In this document: positions 321 through 6,884 of the stretch, piece after piece
Numbering within the stretch: position 1 is the stretch's first letter
Layout: each line of letters begins with the position of its first letter
Assembly (NCBI GenBank): GCA_019232665.1
Contig: JAFANN010000182.1
Span: 1 to 37,715 of the forward strand
Direction of reading: 5' to 3'
DNA from: Caulobacteraceae bacterium
GTDB lineage: Bacteria; Pseudomonadota; Alphaproteobacteria; Caulobacterales; Caulobacteraceae
DNA length: 37,715 nucleotides
The notes under the pieces: generated by a model
Databases searched by the model: none
What the model saw: the letters and a program-made list of their open reading frames with translations, nothing else
Told to the model about the DNA's origin: nothing
Translations under genes and position numbers: made by a program

Positions 321-1061
321 CTACGCCGTTTGGGCCGCGGGACGCCGCCGCAAGACCGCGCCAATCCCGAAAACGCCGAAGATCATCAGGGTCCAGGCCG
401 CCGGCTCGGGGACGAAGGTGATCCCCGTGGCTGGCGTCGTCGCGCCACATCCGCCCATGTCGGACGTGAAGCATGTCGAGGAGGCCACGGAGAAGTCCCT
501 GCCAGGTCCCGTCGCCGCATAGATCGCCTCGCCGAGCGCCGACGGCGCTGTGGTGAAATCCAGTCGGAAGTCATCCACGTCTCCCGTCAGGGAGACCGGG
601 CTCGCGAGCTTATAGTCGACCGTCAGGACTCCGTGGCTGTTGGTGTAGGTCAGGGTCGAGCCGGGGAGCGGCGATCCCGGGTTGAACCCGGAGGGCAGGG
701 GAAGGACGGGCATCGTTCCCGATCCGGCCACCGGCGGAGGCGTGTCGCCGCCGACGGAGATAAGCCCGAGCGGTCCGCTTGCAGATTGATTGAAGGTGTA
801 GAGGGCGGGATTATAATCGAGCGTCAGGGTGAATCCGGTGAAGTTCGTCGCAAGTGGGTCGATTACGATCGTCACGGAAGTGTAGAATGTCTTGCCAAAG
901 ATGACGACGGGATCGTCCCTGTAAGCATAGAGGCTTACGGCGACATGGTTGGGACCGCTACTGTAGGCCTGGGCGATTGATGGCGCGCCGACCGCGGCGG
1001 CCGACAAGGCCACGATCGGGGCGGTTTGACTGACGAGCTTCATCAACTTGGCTGGGGACAT
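321..1061 (-). CDS. PEP-CTERM sorting domain protein
   Basis: This 246-residue exported protein starts with an N-terminal signal peptide (basic start, hydrophobic core to about residue 32 ending A-Q-A). It ends in a tripartite sorting tail from about residue 218: P-E-P-A-A-W, a hydrophobic segment, then R-R-R. That is the alphaproteobacterial PEP-CTERM form, recognised by exosortase (EpsH/XrtA family). The middle is Ser/Thr/Gly/Pro-rich and beta-strand-like, with two Cys near residues 195 and 203, and resembles no enzyme I know. A GGGAGG Shine-Dalgarno lies about 8 nt before the ATG. No exosortase or exopolysaccharide gene is in the window, so the processing machinery must be elsewhere. The role is unknown; a surface or matrix protein is inferred from the tail. 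Confidence 0.85.
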   Translation of the reverse strand: MSPAKLMKLVSQTAPIVALSAAAVGAPSIAQAYSSGPNHVAVSLYAYRDDPVVIFGKTFYTSVTIVIDPLATNFTGFTLTLDYNPALYTFNQSASGPLGLISVGGDTPPPVAGSGTMPVLPLPSGFNPGSPLPGSTLTYTNSHGVLTVDYKLASPVSLTGDVDDFRLDFTTAPSALGEAIYAATGPGRDFSVASSTCFTSDMGGCGATTPATGITFVPEPAAWTLMIFGVFGIGAVLRRRPAAQTA

Positions 1062-1234: not shown

Positions 1235-1780
1235 TCAGATCGGCTGGCCTTCGCTCTCGGCCCACCGCCTCATCAGGCGATTGCTCGGAAGGCCGTTGTC
1301 CAGGACCTTTCGTGAGCTCTCGACGCCCGCGACGGGCAAGCCCGCCGGATCGAGGAGGCCGACCTGAACCAGGACCGACGCCTGGTCCCAGTAGATGTGC
1401 TCGTGGGCGACCTTGCCATCGCGGAAACGGACGATCGCCACGAGAGGGACCTCCACCCGCCGCCCAGTGGGCGCCACACCGGGCAGCATCCAGTCGATCT
1501 CCGAGGTGTGGGTGAAGCTGAAGATCATCTCGTCGACGATCTGGTCCTCGCCCACCGTCCGGCTCACCGGACGCAGCTCGGTGTCCGGTGGGTTACCGCC
1601 GATGAAATGGTATTTGTAGAAGCGCTTGAGCTGGTCGTGGCCGACGCCGCCGGTGAGCGTCGGAACGTGATTGACGTACGGCTCGGCCAGCATCGTCGCC
1701 ATGGTCGCGTCGACGTCGCGCGTCTCGAATTCGTAACGGCAGTGCGCCTCCCATAGGGCGACGAGATCGATCTGGGACAT
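1235..1780 (-). CDS. NTF2/SnoaL-like family protein
   Basis: This 181-residue soluble protein has the look of the SnoaL-like branch of the NTF2 cone fold. It has an N-terminal helix (L-W-E-A-H-C-R-Y-E-F), a D-V-D-A-T-M-A-T-M helix, P-Y-V-N-H-V-P, and a strand with V-D-E-M-I-F-S-F-T-H-T. A later R-F-R-D-G-K-V-A-H-E-H-I-Y-W-D-Q strand is typical of the family. The ATG at 1780 is preferred because AGGAAG precedes it; an upstream in-frame TTG at 1822 has no better signal. Such proteins are often small isomerases, cyclases or uncharacterised. No substrate can be read from the sequence. It lies downstream of the GMC gene on the other side of a 76-nt gap. Confidence 0.75.
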   Translation of the reverse strand: MSQIDLVALWEAHCRYEFETRDVDATMATMLAEPYVNHVPTLTGGVGHDQLKRFYKYHFIGGNPPDTELRPVSRTVGEDQIVDEMIFSFTHTSEIDWMLPGVAPTGRRVEVPLVAIVRFRDGKVAHEHIYWDQASVLVQVGLLDPAGLPVAGVESSRKVLDNGLPSNRLMRRWAESEGQPI

Positions 1781-1856
1781 CGGGCTTCCTGACGAGGCGG
1801 GTTTGTCGGTACGACTAGCCAAGGCGCGAGCCGCCGTCAGCCGCAGTCGAGTCCGT

Positions 1857-3500
1857 TCAGAGATCTCCGCGCGAGGCGAGCGCCTTGATCCGATCGACTG
1901 TTCGCAGGGAGAGAGCCACGATCGTGAGCGAAGGGTTCACCCCTCCGCATGTGGGGAAGATCGAGCCATCGCAGATCCAGAGGTTGGGGATGTCCCAGCT
2001 TCGGCAGTCGGCGTCGACGACGCTGGTCTCTGGATCAAAGCCCATCCTCGCCGTGCCGTAGAGATGGCAGGTGTCGTTCTCCTGGCGAAAAACATCCCTC
2101 GCGCCGGCGGCCTCGAGACCCATCTGCATCTGGTCCAGGGCATGGGCGATCATCGCCTTGTCGTTGTCGCCCCAGCTGTAGGTGATGCGCGGAACCGGCA
2201 GGCCGTACTGGTCGAGTTCGTCGGTCAGGGTCACTTGATTGCGAGGGTCCGGCAGCATCTCGCCGACCATCTTCAGCCCAACCTGATGGTTGTAGTCCTT
2301 CATCTCCTCACGCAGGGCGCGGCCCCACAGGCCCTTTGACCCGGTCAGGACGTTGACCCACTCGATCGGCAGCGGTCCCTGGGCCATCCAGCAGTAGCCG
2401 CCGAAGAAGTCCTTCTCGTCGCAGTAGTTCCAGTGCTCGGTGACGGTCAGCGAGGGCGGCGCCTTATAGGACCTGACCTCCTGATCCATCTTGCCGAAGA
2501 CCGCCTGGTTCGACTGAGTCATCAGGTACTTGCCAACCAGGCCGGAACTGTTCGCAAGGCCCTCGGGGAATTGTGCATTGGCCGAATTCAGCAGCAGACG
2601 CGGGGTCTCGATGGCGTAGCCCGCGACGATGACGTTGCGCGCGCGCTGAAAGCGCCAGCGACCCTGCCTCAGGTAGTGGACGCCGGTCGCGCGACCGGCC
2701 TCGTCCACCTCGATGCGCCCCACCATCGCGAGGTCGCGGATCTCGGCCCCTGCGCGGATGGCGCGGGGAATGGAAGTGACGAGCTGGCTCTGCTTGGCGT
2801 TGGTCGAGCAGCCGACGCGGCAGAAGCCCCGATAGACGCAAGGATGGGCGTCTCCGCGAGGGGCGGAGAGGGTGGCGATCGGCGTCGGCGTCCAGGCCAG
2901 GCCCATCGCTTCGCAGCCGCGCGCGAGGACCTCCGCCGCCCCGTTCAGCTGATGCTCCCGGTAAGGATACGCCGGTCGCGGCGGGCCCCAGGGATAGGTG
3001 ACCGGGCCAGAGATCGCCAGCAGCCGTTCGGCGCGGCCGTAGTATTCCCAGATCTCCTGCCAATCGATCGGCCAGTCTGCCCCGTAACCCAGGAGAGTCC
3101 GCGCCTTGAACCACTCGGGCCGGAACCGTAGCGACACCATGGCGAAATGGACCGTGCTGCCGCCGACGGCCTTCCCGCTGTTGTTGTCGCCCATCACGAT
3201 GGGATTTGCCCCGTCGACGATGCGCTCGTCGGTCCAGAACACCTGGCGCTGGGCGGTTTCGTCCGAAGCGAAGTCCTCCAGCGGCCGGAAGAAGGGTCCC
3301 GCGTCGAGGCCGACGACCGAGAAGCCGGCTTCGGCCAGCCCCGCGATCAGCGGCGCACCTCCCGCCCCTGTGCCGACGACGACGAAGTCGACCGCATCGG
3401 CCTCCTCGAACTGGCGCATCGGCAGCCACTCGCCGCGCCTCAGGGGATTTGGGGCCCGGCCCTGATCGGCGCGCGGCGCGGCGAAGGGGTCAGCGGACAC
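1857..3500 (-). CDS. GMC-family FAD-dependent oxidoreductase
   Basis: This 547-residue flavoprotein oxidises alcohol or sugar CH-OH groups. Residues about 38-62 form the FAD Rossmann motif (V-V-V-G-T-G-A-G-G), with a later G-G-S-T-V segment. The C-terminal GMC active-site block has His479 in C-H-L-Y-G-T-A-R-M-G and Asn522 in G-G-V-N-P-S, the His/Asn pair of the family. Cys221, Cys227 and Cys231 form a C-x5-C-x3-C cluster near the place where FAD-glucose dehydrogenase catalytic subunits bind a 3Fe-4S cluster. I chose the GTG at 3500, which overlaps the preceding gene's stop by 11 nt; longer starts run through Arg/Pro-rich sequence encoded opposite that gene. It is the last gene of the four-gene operon. 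The substrate is unknown; gluconate/sugar dehydrogenase-like use is inferred from its partner. Confidence 0.9.
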   Translation of the reverse strand: MSADPFAAPRADQGRAPNPLRRGEWLPMRQFEEADAVDFVVVGTGAGGAPLIAGLAEAGFSVVGLDAGPFFRPLEDFASDETAQRQVFWTDERIVDGANPIVMGDNNSGKAVGGSTVHFAMVSLRFRPEWFKARTLLGYGADWPIDWQEIWEYYGRAERLLAISGPVTYPWGPPRPAYPYREHQLNGAAEVLARGCEAMGLAWTPTPIATLSAPRGDAHPCVYRGFCRVGCSTNAKQSQLVTSIPRAIRAGAEIRDLAMVGRIEVDEAGRATGVHYLRQGRWRFQRARNVIVAGYAIETPRLLLNSANAQFPEGLANSSGLVGKYLMTQSNQAVFGKMDQEVRSYKAPPSLTVTEHWNYCDEKDFFGGYCWMAQGPLPIEWVNVLTGSKGLWGRALREEMKDYNHQVGLKMVGEMLPDPRNQVTLTDELDQYGLPVPRITYSWGDNDKAMIAHALDQMQMGLEAAGARDVFRQENDTCHLYGTARMGFDPETSVVDADCRSWDIPNLWICDGSIFPTCGGVNPSLTIVALSLRTVDRIKALASRGDL

Positions 3501-4131
3501 GTTGGTTCTTGCGGCGTGCGGCCGCCTTATCGCCGGGCTTCGCCTCAGCCGGCTCCCACGGATCCCGGCGATCGATGCGCAGGCGCACATAGCCGCGCGG
3601 GCTCGCCGGGCCACCGTAGCCGATCTCGCTCCAGCCCTTGGGGTGGGCGTAGAAGGCATGGGTGATGTCGGGGATCACTCGATGTTCGAAGAACGTCGCC
3701 GGCGGCATCCCACCCCACCCGGAATCCTCGAGCTTCCCGGCCTGCATGCGCCGGATCAGATCCTCGCGCTTCTCCGCTGCCAGATCATGGAAGCCTGTCC
3801 CGTGCGCCGCCCCCGCCTCAGCCTCCAGGGCGGAAAGTCCGCGTCGCCAGGCCTCGCCCTGGCGGGGCAGGGCCCCGTGGCGGTAGCCGTCGGTGTGGTT
3901 CTCGGCCATCTTCTGGTCGACGTAGGCGGCCAGCGGAACGGGGTCGACGTCGCCATCCTGGGGAAAGATCGCGTCGCAGAGGGCCTGGAGCGTGCGCCAC
4001 TCCTGCGGAGTGAAGAACCGCGGCTCGCGGGGGACATTCAGGCGCGCATCGATCGCGGAGCGCGTGGGCTCGTTCCAGGACGGGCCATCCCGTTTGGAAA
4101 GGACATCGTAGCCGGGATAGCGCTCGCTCAT
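3490..4131 (-). CDS. Gluconate 2-dehydrogenase subunit 3 family protein
   Basis: The 213-residue product matches the small subunit family of membrane-bound gluconate/sugar dehydrogenases (PF13618). The block F-F-T-P-Q-E-W-R-T-L-Q-A-L-C-D-A-I-F-P-Q is the usual family opening, followed by a conserved helical region and a W-G-G-M-P-P-x-x-F-F segment. In known complexes this subunit assists folding and export of the GMC flavoprotein. Unlike many relatives, it shows no Tat or Sec signal at the N-terminus. The ATG at 4131 overlaps the preceding stop as ATGA, and the stop overlaps the GMC start. This coupling suggests a physical partnership with the GMC protein. The C-terminal tail is Lys/Arg-rich. 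Confidence 0.85.
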   Translation of the reverse strand: MSERYPGYDVLSKRDGPSWNEPTRSAIDARLNVPREPRFFTPQEWRTLQALCDAIFPQDGDVDPVPLAAYVDQKMAENHTDGYRHGALPRQGEAWRRGLSALEAEAGAAHGTGFHDLAAEKREDLIRRMQAGKLEDSGWGGMPPATFFEHRVIPDITHAFYAHPKGWSEIGYGGPASPRGYVRLRIDRRDPWEPAEAKPGDKAAARRKNQRVR

Positions 4132-5099
4132 TCGCCGCGGCTCTCCAGCAGCGTAAGGGCCGCGAGGCCTGCGATGGCGAGGCCGGTGAAGGATGGCGGA
4201 GCGGGGATGGGCGGACCGCTCATCACGTTTTGACGCCAGTTGCGCCAGCCGCCCATCTGGCGGTGGACGCCGAACACGTGCAGCCCGACGCCGAGGAAGC
4301 CAAGCGCCGCGGTGAGGCGTAGCCACCATCTCGTGAAGGGCCGGGCTCGATCGCTGGAGTCGAGGCTTGCACGTCCGAGCAACGCCGCGGCGACGGGTGG
4401 GATCGTGACGGGCGCCAGCATCAAGGGGTTCTGGAACGCGCCGCGAAAGTGAAGCAGGGCGGCTTCACCGACCGTGCCGGCGATTCCGGCGCTGGTCGCT
4501 GCGGCAAGCGTCCGCCCGGCGGGCAGTCCCAGGATCTTTGGGTCCTCATGCGCGTCGGTGTCGCGCACGCGCTCGGCCAGGAACCCGAGGCTTCCCGAAA
4601 GAAGCATCGCCATCGGCGCGCCGACGGGGGCCGCGTAGAACAGGTTCTGCCAGCAGAGGCCGCCCGGCCTCTTGGTGATGTTGTAGAGGTGGAACGCAGT
4701 CCCGGCGCAGCCCGCGAGCGCCGCGGCGGCGTAGACCGTGTCGCGGAAGCGATGGGCGGCCGGCCGGCGATCCGCAACCCCGTGCAGGCTCGCCGCCAGC
4801 GAGGCCGCCGCGGTGATGAGCGGGGTGATCATCGCCGGATTGTGGAAGGCGCCGACGTAGTGCTCGATCCCGCTGTCGAACAGCACGGAGGCCGCGAGCG
4901 TGCCGGAGGCGCCGTTCAGTCTACGTCCTACCTGCGCGGCGAGCTCATCCGACCGTTCGTTCCGCGGCGCCCGAGTCCATTGATGCGCGCCTCTCTTTGT
5001 GACCGGCGCCCTTCGCAACGCAGATCGACGCCAGGTCGACGGGGATTTCGTGTCGCCGGCGTGCTCGCGCCGGCGAGAGATCACCGCTGTCGGGTTCAT
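4128..5099 (-). CDS. Eight-helix membrane protein with two-fold internal repeat, operon partner of GMC dehydrogenase
   Basis: I do not recognise a named family for this 323-residue protein. After a basic, probably cytoplasmic 60-residue leader, eight hydrophobic segments are visible (about 62-80, 86-108, 119-140, 153-176, 197-217, 225-243, 257-280, 303-318). The two halves resemble each other: G-A-F-H-N-P (83-88) against G-A-F-Q-N-P (220-225), and G-G-L-C-W-Q-N against G-G-W-R-N-W-R-Q-N. His80 and His137 in half 1 match His217 and His274 in half 2. The start is the ATG at 5099 with AAGG/GGCGGA upstream, 6 nt after the TPP-enzyme stop. It overlaps the subunit-3 gene by ATGA. I infer a membrane anchor and possibly an electron carrier to the quinone pool for the GMC complex. 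Confidence 0.8.
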   Translation of the reverse strand: MNPTAVISRRREHAGDTKSPSTWRRSALRRAPVTKRGAHQWTRAPRNERSDELAAQVGRRLNGASGTLAASVLFDSGIEHYVGAFHNPAMITPLITAAASLAASLHGVADRRPAAHRFRDTVYAAAALAGCAGTAFHLYNITKRPGGLCWQNLFYAAPVGAPMAMLLSGSLGFLAERVRDTDAHEDPKILGLPAGRTLAAATSAGIAGTVGEAALLHFRGAFQNPLMLAPVTIPPVAAALLGRASLDSSDRARPFTRWWLRLTAALGFLGVGLHVFGVHRQMGGWRNWRQNVMSGPPIPAPPSFTGLAIAGLAALTLLESRGE

Positions 5100-5105
5100 T
5101 CCGCC

Positions 5106-6884
5106 TTATTCCTTGTGCGGAACGACAGATTCGAAAACCTGCTTGGCGGTGTTCTTGAGCACGCTGCCGAGCTCGGGCTCATCCTTCAGCGACAGCATGA
5201 AATGGCGGGCGTCCTTTAGCGTGATGTGTGGCGGCAACGGCGGGACGTTGGGGTCGGTGTAAGCCTCCAGGATCACCGGCCTGTCCGAGTTGAGCGCTTC
5301 CTCCCACGCGTCGCCGACATCGTCGGGATGGTCGACGAATATCCCTCTCAGGCCGAGGAGCTCGGCATACTTGTGGTACGGCATGTCAGGGATCGACTGG
5401 GTGCTCTCGGTCTTGCCCGCGCCGATCTGCACCCGCTCCTCCCAGGTGACCTGGTTGAGGTCACGGTTGTTGAGCACCAGGCAGATGAAGTGGGGCGTCG
5501 ACCACTGCTTCCAGTATTTGGAGACGGTGATCATCACGTTGATCCCGTTCATCTGCATCGCCCCGTCGCCCATGCAGGCGATCACCGTCCGATCCGGGAA
5601 GGCCATTTTGGCGGCCAGGGCGTAGGGCGTGCCGGCCCCGAGCGAGGCTAGGCCTCCCGAGAGGGAGAACATCATTCCGCGCCGCGCCTTCAGATCTCGG
5701 GCGAACCAGTTGGCCACGCTGCCGGAATCGGCCGTCACGATCGCTTTGTCCGGGAGGCGGGGCGACAGCTCCCAGAACACCCGCTGAGGATTGAGGGGAT
5801 CGGCGGACGCCATGGCCTTCGCTTCGAGTTGCCCCCACCAGTTCTCGAGGCCCTTGGCGATACCGTCGCGCCATGACGTATCGGTGTTCTGCCGAAGCAG
5901 GGGCAGCAGCGCCCGCAGGGTCGCGGCGGAGTGGCCTACGAGGTTCACCTCCATCGGATAGCGCATGGAGAGGTTCGCCCCGTTGATGTCGATCTGCACG
6001 CCGCGCGCGTCGCCCGGCTTGGGCAGGAACTCCGAATAAGGGAAGCAGGAGCCGACCATCAGGAGGGTGTCGCACTCCTTCATCAGATCCCAGCTCGGCT
6101 TGGTGCCGAGCAGGCCGATCGAGCCGGTGACCCAGGGCAGATCGTCGGGCAGGGCGGCCTTGCCCAGGAGCGCCTTGGCGCAGCCCGCGCCCAGCTTGTC
6201 GGCGACGGCGATCAGTTCGTCGGTCGCATGGAGCGCGCCGGCGCCCGCGAGGATGGCGACCTTCTTTCCGGCGTTCAGGACCTCGGCCGCTGCGCGCAGA
6301 CCGGCGTCGTCGGGGACCTTGGATTCGACGGCGTGCCCGACGCCGGTGTGGACGGCGCCGTGCTCCATCGGCGGGTCCTCGTATTTCATCAGTTGCAGGT
6401 CGTTGGGCAGGATCACGCAGGTGACCGACCGCTTGGCGCGGGCGATCCGCACGGCCCGATCGATGAGGGTGCGGACCTGGCCGGGCTCGGTTCCCATGGC
6501 GACGTATTCGCTCGCCACGTCCTTGAAGAGGTTCAGGAGGTCGACTTCCTGCTGGTAGCTGGCGCCGATCGACATCCGCCCCTGCTGACCGACGATCGCA
6601 ACGACGGGAACGTGGTCCATCTTCGCGTCGTACAGGCCGTTGAGCAGGTGGATCGCGCCGGGTCCCGAGGTGGCGAAGCAGAGACCGACCTCGCCGGTGA
6701 ACTTGGCGTGGGCTGACGCCATGAAGGCGGCCATCTCCTCATGGCGGACCTGCACGTACTGCATCCGGTCCTTGGCCTTCTCCAGCGCGACATCCAGGCC
6801 GCCGACGCCATCGCCGGGATAGCCGTAAACGCGCTTGATCCCCCACTCCCCAAGCCGCTGCCAGACGAATTCGCTCACATCCAT
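5106..6884 (-). CDS. Thiamine diphosphate-dependent enzyme, pyruvate oxidase/acetolactate synthase-like
   Basis: This 592-residue protein has the three-domain layout of the superfamily. The N-terminal PYR domain holds the cofactor-activating Glu in R-H-E-E (about residue 49). The central domain contains I-L-A-G-A-G-A. The C-terminal PP domain has the ThDP/Mg motif starting G-D-G-A-M-Q at residue 439 and ending N-N at 472-473. Resemblance is closest to PoxB-type pyruvate:quinone oxidoreductases and the 'TPP-requiring' proteins near them. A C-terminal amphipathic stretch (V-L-K-N-T-A-K-Q-V-F) could touch the membrane as in PoxB, but this is inference. The ATG at 6884 has GAGGAG about 10 nt upstream. 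It is the first gene of the four-gene operon and diverges from mipZ. Confidence 0.85.
   Translation of the reverse strand: MDVSEFVWQRLGEWGIKRVYGYPGDGVGGLDVALEKAKDRMQYVQVRHEEMAAFMASAHAKFTGEVGLCFATSGPGAIHLLNGLYDAKMDHVPVVAIVGQQGRMSIGASYQQEVDLLNLFKDVASEYVAMGTEPGQVRTLIDRAVRIARAKRSVTCVILPNDLQLMKYEDPPMEHGAVHTGVGHAVESKVPDDAGLRAAAEVLNAGKKVAILAGAGALHATDELIAVADKLGAGCAKALLGKAALPDDLPWVTGSIGLLGTKPSWDLMKECDTLLMVGSCFPYSEFLPKPGDARGVQIDINGANLSMRYPMEVNLVGHSAATLRALLPLLRQNTDTSWRDGIAKGLENWWGQLEAKAMASADPLNPQRVFWELSPRLPDKAIVTADSGSVANWFARDLKARRGMMFSLSGGLASLGAGTPYALAAKMAFPDRTVIACMGDGAMQMNGINVMITVSKYWKQWSTPHFICLVLNNRDLNQVTWEERVQIGAGKTESTQSIPDMPYHKYAELLGLRGIFVDHPDDVGDAWEEALNSDRPVILEAYTDPNVPPLPPHITLKDARHFMLSLKDEPELGSVLKNTAKQVFESVVPHKE

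Follow-up and report, generated by a model that had tools for sequence, protein, structure and literature searches.

The window analysed here, a 37.7-kb stretch of Caulobacteraceae DNA that belongs to a 3.8-Mb assembly of 375 contigs, contains four tightly packed genes, all on the minus strand. In operon order, they encode a thiamine diphosphate (ThDP)-dependent enzyme, an unnamed membrane protein (here called MEM), a Gluconate_2-dh3 subunit (SU3), and a GMC flavoprotein (GMC). With modest confidence, we favour the interpretation that MEM, SU3, and GMC form a membrane-bound, quinone-linked flavin dehydrogenase of the glucose/gluconate dehydrogenase type, which would lack twin-arginine (Tat) export and in which MEM would replace cytochrome c. 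The coordinates confirm the gene order and the spacings given in an earlier reading based on the letters only (the sequence-only reading), i.e. 6 nt between the ThDP gene and MEM, a 4-nt overlap of MEM and SU3, and an 11-nt overlap of SU3 and GMC. The latter overlap is likewise annotated in Nitrobacter hamburgensis and Lichenicola, and the arrangement of the genes is not due to chance, since it recurs across phyla. The Pfam domains are TPP_enzyme_N/M/C in the ThDP enzyme, Gluconate_2-dh3 in SU3, which is the sole PF13618 match in the source genome, and GMC_oxred_N and GMC_oxred_C in GMC. The features are the following.

5106..6884, minus strand: ThDP-dependent enzyme, 592 aa; Pfam TPP_enzyme_N/M/C; NF006129/PRK08273; nearest solved relative PoxB (3ey9)
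4128..5099, minus strand: MEM, unnamed membrane protein with eight predicted helices, 323 aa; based on alignments A1 and A2, AlphaFold2, and hhalign of the halves
4557..4958, minus strand: MEM half 1, residues 48-181, with H80 (4860-4862) and H137 (4689-4691)
4131..4538, minus strand: MEM half 2, residues 188-323, with H217 (4449-4451) and H274 (4278-4280)
3490..4131, minus strand: SU3, Gluconate_2-dh3 subunit, 213 aa, no Tat signal; PF13618, E 1.7e-22
1857..3500, minus strand: GMC flavoprotein, 547 aa from GTG 3500 or 520 aa from ATG 3419; PF00732/PF05199
2808..2840, minus strand: C194-x5-C200-x3-C204 of GMC (numbered from ATG 3419), aligned with the [3Fe-4S] ligands of 6a2u

To estimate the linkage of the three genes, a collection of genome contigs was searched with MEM alone. 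Relatives are encoded on 94 stretches, of which the best 80 were kept for the linkage counts. SU3 follows MEM in all 73 loci that continue for 700 bases or more beyond it, and GMC is present in all 67 loci that continue for 2.7 kb or more; the remaining loci end too early. The loci are not independent, i.e. Caballeronia, Burkholderia, and Methylobacterium are over-represented, and the best-segment identities to MEM of 46 to 67% show that the closer family was covered. The gene-order comparison that the sequence-only reading had proposed thus shows MEM travelling with SU3 and GMC wherever the DNA sufficed. In some Acetobacteraceae loci, the ThDP gene is placed between MEM and SU3. One MEM copy (L095, G318:C1:433228-434067) has an internal TGA and is probably a pseudogene; the locus still shows matches to the ThDP enzyme, SU3, GMC, an SDR, and GH15.

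The association extends to a particular branch of the flavoproteins. In a tree of 43 GMC proteins, 24 MEM-linked sequences are on one side of a branch with 100/99 support and the 19 others are on the opposite side; the rows are a chosen subset. A first tree, which included a very long row from the source genome, required two changes of the MEM label, and the tree of 43 proteins, calculated without this row and without L165, required one; L164, with a partial GMC, is in neither. Judged from the tree of 43 proteins, MEM is tied to one GMC clade.

The MEM-SU3-GMC unit is common to Proteobacteria, Deinococcus, an acidobacterium, and an actinobacterium. MEM itself is rare: it was found in 5 of 398 genomes of the phylum and 4 of 385 genomes of the class (up to five candidates scored per genome), and in 3 of the 40 nearest relatives, with the own genome counted each time. 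It is also present on 23 of 72,556 plasmid records, and Deinococcus peraridilitoris and Granulicella tundricola each have a complete cassette on a plasmid. The patchy spread together with the plasmid copies suggests horizontal transfer of the cassette. The annotated plasmid records mostly name MEM a hypothetical protein (a putative membrane protein in one case), and no description of this operon was found in the open-licence papers of PubMed Central.

MEM has no match in Pfam (E 0.1), NCBIfam (E 0.01), or the sequences of the Protein Data Bank (profile search, E 10). A Pfam search with 52 family members gave only scattered weak matches, the best being DUF2637 (1.8e-4, one member) and Acyl_transf_3 (five members, best 0.0027). 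The AlphaFold2 model comprises eight long helices (mean pLDDT 86, pTM 0.82). Exactly four histidines, H80, H137, H217, and H274, are invariant in two alignments of 52 and 68 proteins; they are 57 residues apart inside each half, and the spacing between the halves is 137 residues. In the model, they are located in helices 1, 3, 5, and 7, near the helix ends, and they would point to one membrane face if the topology is regular, where two short helices are also predicted. MEM therefore has two conserved histidine pairs within predicted transmembrane helices, as is characteristic of diheme b-type cytochromes. Many MEM relatives (L003, L031, L034, and others) seemingly have an extra hydrophobic stretch ahead of helix 1, as judged by eye, which the MEM of the window lacks.

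A comparison of the two halves of MEM with hhalign yielded a probability of 99.1 (E 1.8e-18, 109 columns), while six controls (one reversed, five shuffled) all gave values of at most 2.01. The profile comparison thus shows MEM to consist of two tandem copies of a 4-helix unit, each with its own histidine pair, and together with the AlphaFold2 model it bears out the earlier notion of a duplicated membrane protein with eight helices. Independent support for the duplication comes from single-unit relatives of 154-157 aa, which occur in Deinococcus sp. D7000, Deinococcus AJ005, and the actinobacterium Frondihabitans sp. PAMC 28766 and retain both histidines of the pair; half 2 of MEM is homologous to the protein of Deinococcus sp. 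D7000. These single-unit genes are plasmid-borne and stand beside SU3 and GMC. In Frondihabitans, the single unit is followed by SU3, GMC, and an aldose 1-epimerase gene. Deinococcus sp. D7000 has SU3 and GMC as a single fused protein, and in AJ005 tblastn detects SU3 between the single unit and GMC, in a stretch that is not open in the one frame translated. On two Deinococcus plasmids, a small protein is encoded directly before the single unit (L175:10095-10493 and L179:6619-7008); the former has a CGLC motif and a weak VKOR match (E 4e-5, failing the cut-off).

The nearest solved relative of GMC is the alpha subunit of the FAD glucose dehydrogenase of B. cepacia (alpha-gamma complex, 6a2u, 177.5 bits). 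The large subunit of fructose dehydrogenase (7w2j and others) is also homologous, with 162 bits; this enzyme has a cytochrome c subunit, while the window has no CxxCH frame of at least 80 aa. H452 and N495 of GMC fall on the conserved His and Asn of the alignment, and we take them as the catalytic pair. C194, C200, and C204 align with Cys212, Cys218, and Cys222 of 6a2u, which are the [3Fe-4S] ligands of the B. cepacia enzyme, and H91 aligns with His105, described as a possible covalent FAD site (PMC6719666). The cysteine spacing C-x5-C-x3-C is found in 62 of 62 aligned GMC proteins of the family (63 sequences, one of which was left out because of a stop). The window thus encodes the [3Fe-4S] cysteines, the His/Asn pair, and the gamma-type small subunit (subunit 3, PF13618) of a GMC dehydrogenase, and the retention of the FAD-linking His, the cysteines, and the His/Asn pair supports the dehydrogenase proposed here. 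A small gamma-type subunit is also common to both enzymes, although the structural match is weak: for the AlphaFold2 model of SU3 (mean pLDDT 88), Foldseek returned nothing significant, and the top VIA match was the B. cepacia gamma subunit (6a2u_A) with a Z of 3.5.

The differences from the B. cepacia enzyme concern export and the electron acceptor. The solved enzyme is Tat-exported and coupled to a triheme cytochrome c (PMC6719666), whereas the operon of the window has MEM in place of a triheme cytochrome subunit, and its small subunit lacks a Tat signal. No export signal is seen at the N-terminus of the SU3 of the window, and a conserved sequence, RYPGYDV..KRD.PSWN, stands where the Tat signal for hitchhiker export would be. 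Of 81 rows of MEM-linked SU3 (two of which are the window itself), one (L046) matched the Tat pattern, and this was a false match in a stretch without a hydrophobic segment. For comparison, 190 genomes of the class were sampled, which gave 24 SU3 matches in 16 genomes, three with and 21 without MEM. A Tat-like motif is present in 13 of the 21 MEM-free SU3 by pattern and in four more by eye (L158, L159, L164, and L162, the last displayed in part); it was not seen in the other four (L156, L165, L166, and L167). The lack of an export signal in SU3, as noted from the letters, is thereby borne out, and because of this lack the GMC/SU3 enzyme is likely to reside on the cytoplasmic side.

The sequence-only reading had further stated that a cytochrome c gene is missing and that MEM occupies its place. 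Both observations stand: no open frame of at least 80 aa in the window contains CxxCH. The absence is not rare for SU3/GMC pairs, however. All 21 MEM-free SU3 loci have GMC, and a CxxCH frame is located nearby in seven of them and in none of the other 14, so that the missing neighbouring cytochrome c was rejected as a special trait. The unusual part of the locus is the presence of MEM together with the missing Tat signal. In the seven loci with CxxCH (L149, L150, L153, L154, L155, L160, and L161), GMC has the spacing C-x2-C-x2-C instead of C-x5-C-x3-C, which perhaps represents a different Fe-S site; the same spacing occurs in two further MEM-free loci (L164 was left out of the comparison).

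It could be argued that the enzyme is a gluconate/glucose dehydrogenase of the classical, cytochrome-c-linked type and that the gene for its cytochrome lies at another site in the genome. The source genome has 15 PF00034 matches, with two triheme frames among the loci examined (C260 and C162), and the closest solved structure to GMC is that of a cytochrome-linked glucose dehydrogenase. However, the SU3 proteins of the family lack the Tat signal, and among 51 MEM relatives with full flanks, a frame carrying at least two CxxCH is located within ~12.7 kb in only 5. Both triheme frames are next to genes for proteins with molybdopterin-binding domains (in one case also next to a [2Fe-2S] gene) and are therefore not obvious orphan partners of GMC, which weakens the idea of an orphan partner. 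The GMC proteins adjacent to CxxCH frames carry C-x2-C-x2-C, although this argument is limited by the cytochrome-linked B. cepacia enzyme, which shares C-x5-C-x3-C with the family. We regard a hidden cytochrome c as highly improbable. On C214, the source genome encodes a further GMC beside a frame with two CxxCH.

The proposed mechanism, with MEM instead of a cytochrome c, is as follows. A cytoplasmic GMC, held by SU3, would oxidise a sugar, a sugar lactone, or a sugar acid, and the electrons would pass from FAD to the [3Fe-4S] cluster, to MEM, and on to quinone, so that MEM would be both the membrane anchor and the electron acceptor. The histidine pairs of MEM would most likely form two b heme sites, with quinone sites as the second choice. 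Quinone subunits of the NrfD/PsrC type have eight helices in two four-helix bundles beside an Fe-S electron donor; the likeness to MEM is an analogy, and no such family is among the Pfam matches of the 52 members. A second analogy, fumarate reductase with a diheme cytochrome b, has been drawn for the B. cepacia enzyme (PMC6719666). In that system, flavin and Fe-S centres feed a membrane subunit, and by analogy MEM would hold two hemes, but there is no detectable homology to MEM.

The neighbouring genes indicate a larger carbohydrate module. Most relatives of the operon contain an extra gene of the enolase superfamily, which carries the annotation enolase C-terminal domain-like protein and is usually located between the genes for the ThDP enzyme and MEM. 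Among solved proteins, its product is closest to 3cyj (382.8 bits), followed by a putative racemase (146 bits) and, lower, acid-sugar dehydratases. Gene fractions were determined for the 51 full-flank loci, i.e. those with flanks of 5.9 kb or more on each side, with genes scored anywhere in the locus (tblastn, 1e-8). The ThDP enzyme was found in 48, the enolase in 37, an SDR in 33, a GH15 glucosidase in 24, and an SMP-30 lactonase in 5 loci; the SDR count is the least specific, because the SDR superfamily is large. The complex would be the redox step of a stress-linked carbohydrate module comprising the GH15 glucosidase, the SDR, an enolase-superfamily acid-sugar dehydratase, and the ThDP enzyme, perhaps a decarboxylase. 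Some cassettes have a gene for the SMP-30 lactonase (L009, L015, L019, L042, and others) or a sensory rhodopsin transducer (L021, L087, L088, L101, L104, L175, and L179) in their vicinity, a hint of lactone chemistry or sugar sensing. In L020, L025-L028, L030, L039, L041, and L102, the ThDP gene is on the strand opposite to enolase-MEM-SU3-GMC, with SDR and GH15 matches upstream. In the window, a SnoaL-like gene (1235-1822, minus strand) is located 34 nt 3′ of GMC on the same strand, and it has no match in any other cassette locus (tblastn, 1e-8); a PEP-CTERM protein is encoded at 321-1061 (minus strand; E 2.9e-4, barely passing the curated cut-off).

The redox unit of the module appears to be exchangeable. 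Rhodococcus koreensis, Rhizobium sp. Q54, and Sinorhizobium sojae have the same ThDP-enolase pair, but the gene behind it encodes a ~1000-aa FAD-linked oxidase/4Fe-4S protein in place of MEM-SU3-GMC. Such an FAD oxidase precedes the enolase gene in Streptomyces sp. NBC_00984, where no ThDP gene is listed in an incomplete gene table (the four clusters with the cassette enolase gene are L173, L174, L176, and L177). This suggests that MEM-SU3-GMC does a comparable job, i.e. that it oxidises a carbohydrate-derived compound and passes the electrons on. As the ThDP-enolase pair carries a different oxidase elsewhere, the ThDP enzyme is presumably part of the pathway and not of the redox complex. A related arrangement is found in the sugar operons linked to ASRT (PMC2739507), which share a pyruvate decarboxylase/oxidase, a sugar-acid dehydratase/racemase, amylases, and an FAD enzyme related to glycolate oxidase, and which have in common with some MEM cassettes a nearby sensory rhodopsin transducer gene. 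They differ in that their redox unit is of the glycolate oxidase type, and the terms "gluconate" and "membrane protein" are absent from the main text; as far as this text goes, the paper describes a sister operon of the MEM cassette.

These results bear on the proposal that the ThDP gene encodes a pyruvate:quinone oxidoreductase similar to PoxB, so that two dehydrogenases would feed one quinone route. The nearest solved relative of the enzyme is PoxB, with homology over the full length (3ey9, residues 3-565, 274 bits), and the gene is present in nearly all full-flank loci, as given above. NCBIfam, however, places the enzyme in a separate family, NF006129, with 1009.6 bits (cut-off 724) compared to 348.7 bits for the family of ubiquinone-dependent pyruvate dehydrogenases. 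In addition, the gene is sometimes on the opposite strand, and the frequent pair with the enolase persists with an unrelated FAD/Fe-S oxidase. The ThDP enzyme could still reduce quinone in spite of the swap, and a PoxB-like function would be compatible with the dehydrogenase proposed here, but the role as a second dehydrogenase, advanced in the sequence-only reading, did not hold up well and appears unlikely.

The regulation of the cassette was addressed with a motif search, GGAAC-N16-18-[CG]GTT, in 73 regions upstream of the ThDP gene. Class labels were taken from the record titles, and everything not listed as beta, gamma, or other was counted as alpha. The EcfG-type motif was found on the right strand in 21 of 36 alphaproteobacterial loci; one such locus has it on the wrong strand, and random stretches drawn from these loci would give 0.28. 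It was absent from the upstream regions of the beta (0 of 29), gamma (0 of 4), and other (0 of 4) groups. The EcfG consensus of Sphingomonas melonis is GGAAC-N17-20-GTT (PMC6599016). The fraction of alphaproteobacterial copies with the motif indicates that the cassette is probably under the control of the general stress response in many Alphaproteobacteria. The copy of the window lacks the motif, both upstream of the ThDP gene and anywhere else in the window.

Several results weigh against a quinone-linked MEM in a stress-induced sugar module. As regards the module, the terms "gmc", "thiamine", and "gluconate" are absent from the main text of PMC6599016, so that this text does not report the cassette as an EcfG target. 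The enolase gene was not found in 14 of the 51 full-flank loci, nor in the window. The source genome has four MR_MLE matches elsewhere, one of which matches the cassette enolase with 24% identity, and we infer that the copy of the window lost, or never had, this gene. The module is also not always whole, as the 18.5-kb stretch of Frondihabitans yielded no match to the ThDP gene or the enolase gene. As regards MEM, a Foldseek search with its model gave no match at E <= 0.001, i.e. no solved heme or quinone protein matched significantly. The VIA matches reached a Z of 10.5, which is inside the stated background for helical bundles; the top rows were 3dby (Z 10.5) and 3d19 (Z 10.4), followed by assorted membrane proteins. 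Diheme cytochromes b and NrfD are not among the VIA matches listed, which is uninformative either way. Vitamin-K carboxylase, one of the membrane proteins in these rows (Z 7.8, rmsd 5.0, 203 aligned residues), lies within the same background, and no fold relation is claimed.

The orientation of MEM is a real difficulty. The membrane side of the histidine face was judged from the loop charges only, and in the variable columns K+R amounts to 9.1 on the side of the N-terminus and the even loops, compared to 1.05 on the histidine side. Under the positive-inside rule, the histidine face therefore looks periplasmic, opposite to the presumed location of SU3 and GMC. With all columns counted and the N-terminal tail excluded, the values are near balance (7.7 versus 7.2). 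Either the rule is misleading here, because the histidine side consists mostly of conserved columns with functional arginines, or the electron path is less simple than proposed. The earlier suggestion of a complex on the cytoplasmic side is thus supported by the Tat-less SU3 but agrees poorly with the loop charges of MEM in the variable columns.

A rival view is that MEM is a mere anchor or a substrate transporter, that the electrons of GMC go to oxygen or to a soluble carrier, and that the histidines are structural or bind another metal. Such a role of MEM would agree with the apparent position of the histidine face, with the lack of a detectable relation of MEM to any electron-transfer family, and with the 14 MEM-free SU3/GMC loci that do without a neighbouring CxxCH gene. 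On the other hand, four invariant histidines, with the pair kept even in the single-unit proteins, would be unusual for a plain anchor, as would the tight co-occurrence with one GMC clade, and the complete conservation of the [3Fe-4S] ligands suggests one-electron transfer to a bound partner. We thus consider the anchor or transporter role rather unlikely and retain the electron-accepting MEM.

A further-reaching view, which we put forward tentatively and hold to be somewhat less probable than its opposite, is that MEM is the founding member of a new family of electron-transfer proteins in the membrane. Its 4-helix units with one histidine pair each would work as a pair, fused in tandem in most copies, and would transfer electrons from the [3Fe-4S] cluster of GMC to quinone; in a mobile sugar-oxidising module induced by stress, they would thereby replace cytochrome c as well as Tat export. 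With the single-unit relatives, both the evolution of MEM and its cofactor become directly testable.

GMC/subunit-3 dehydrogenases are used in glucose sensors. The cassette analysed here probably feeds sugar electrons into the membrane by a route not yet described. MEM is mostly annotated as hypothetical, yet the cassette spans several phyla and carries a stress-promoter motif in many Alphaproteobacteria. If the proposed function is true, a lineage that dropped export and cytochrome c in favour of an unnamed membrane subunit would represent a new coupling of sugar oxidation to respiration.

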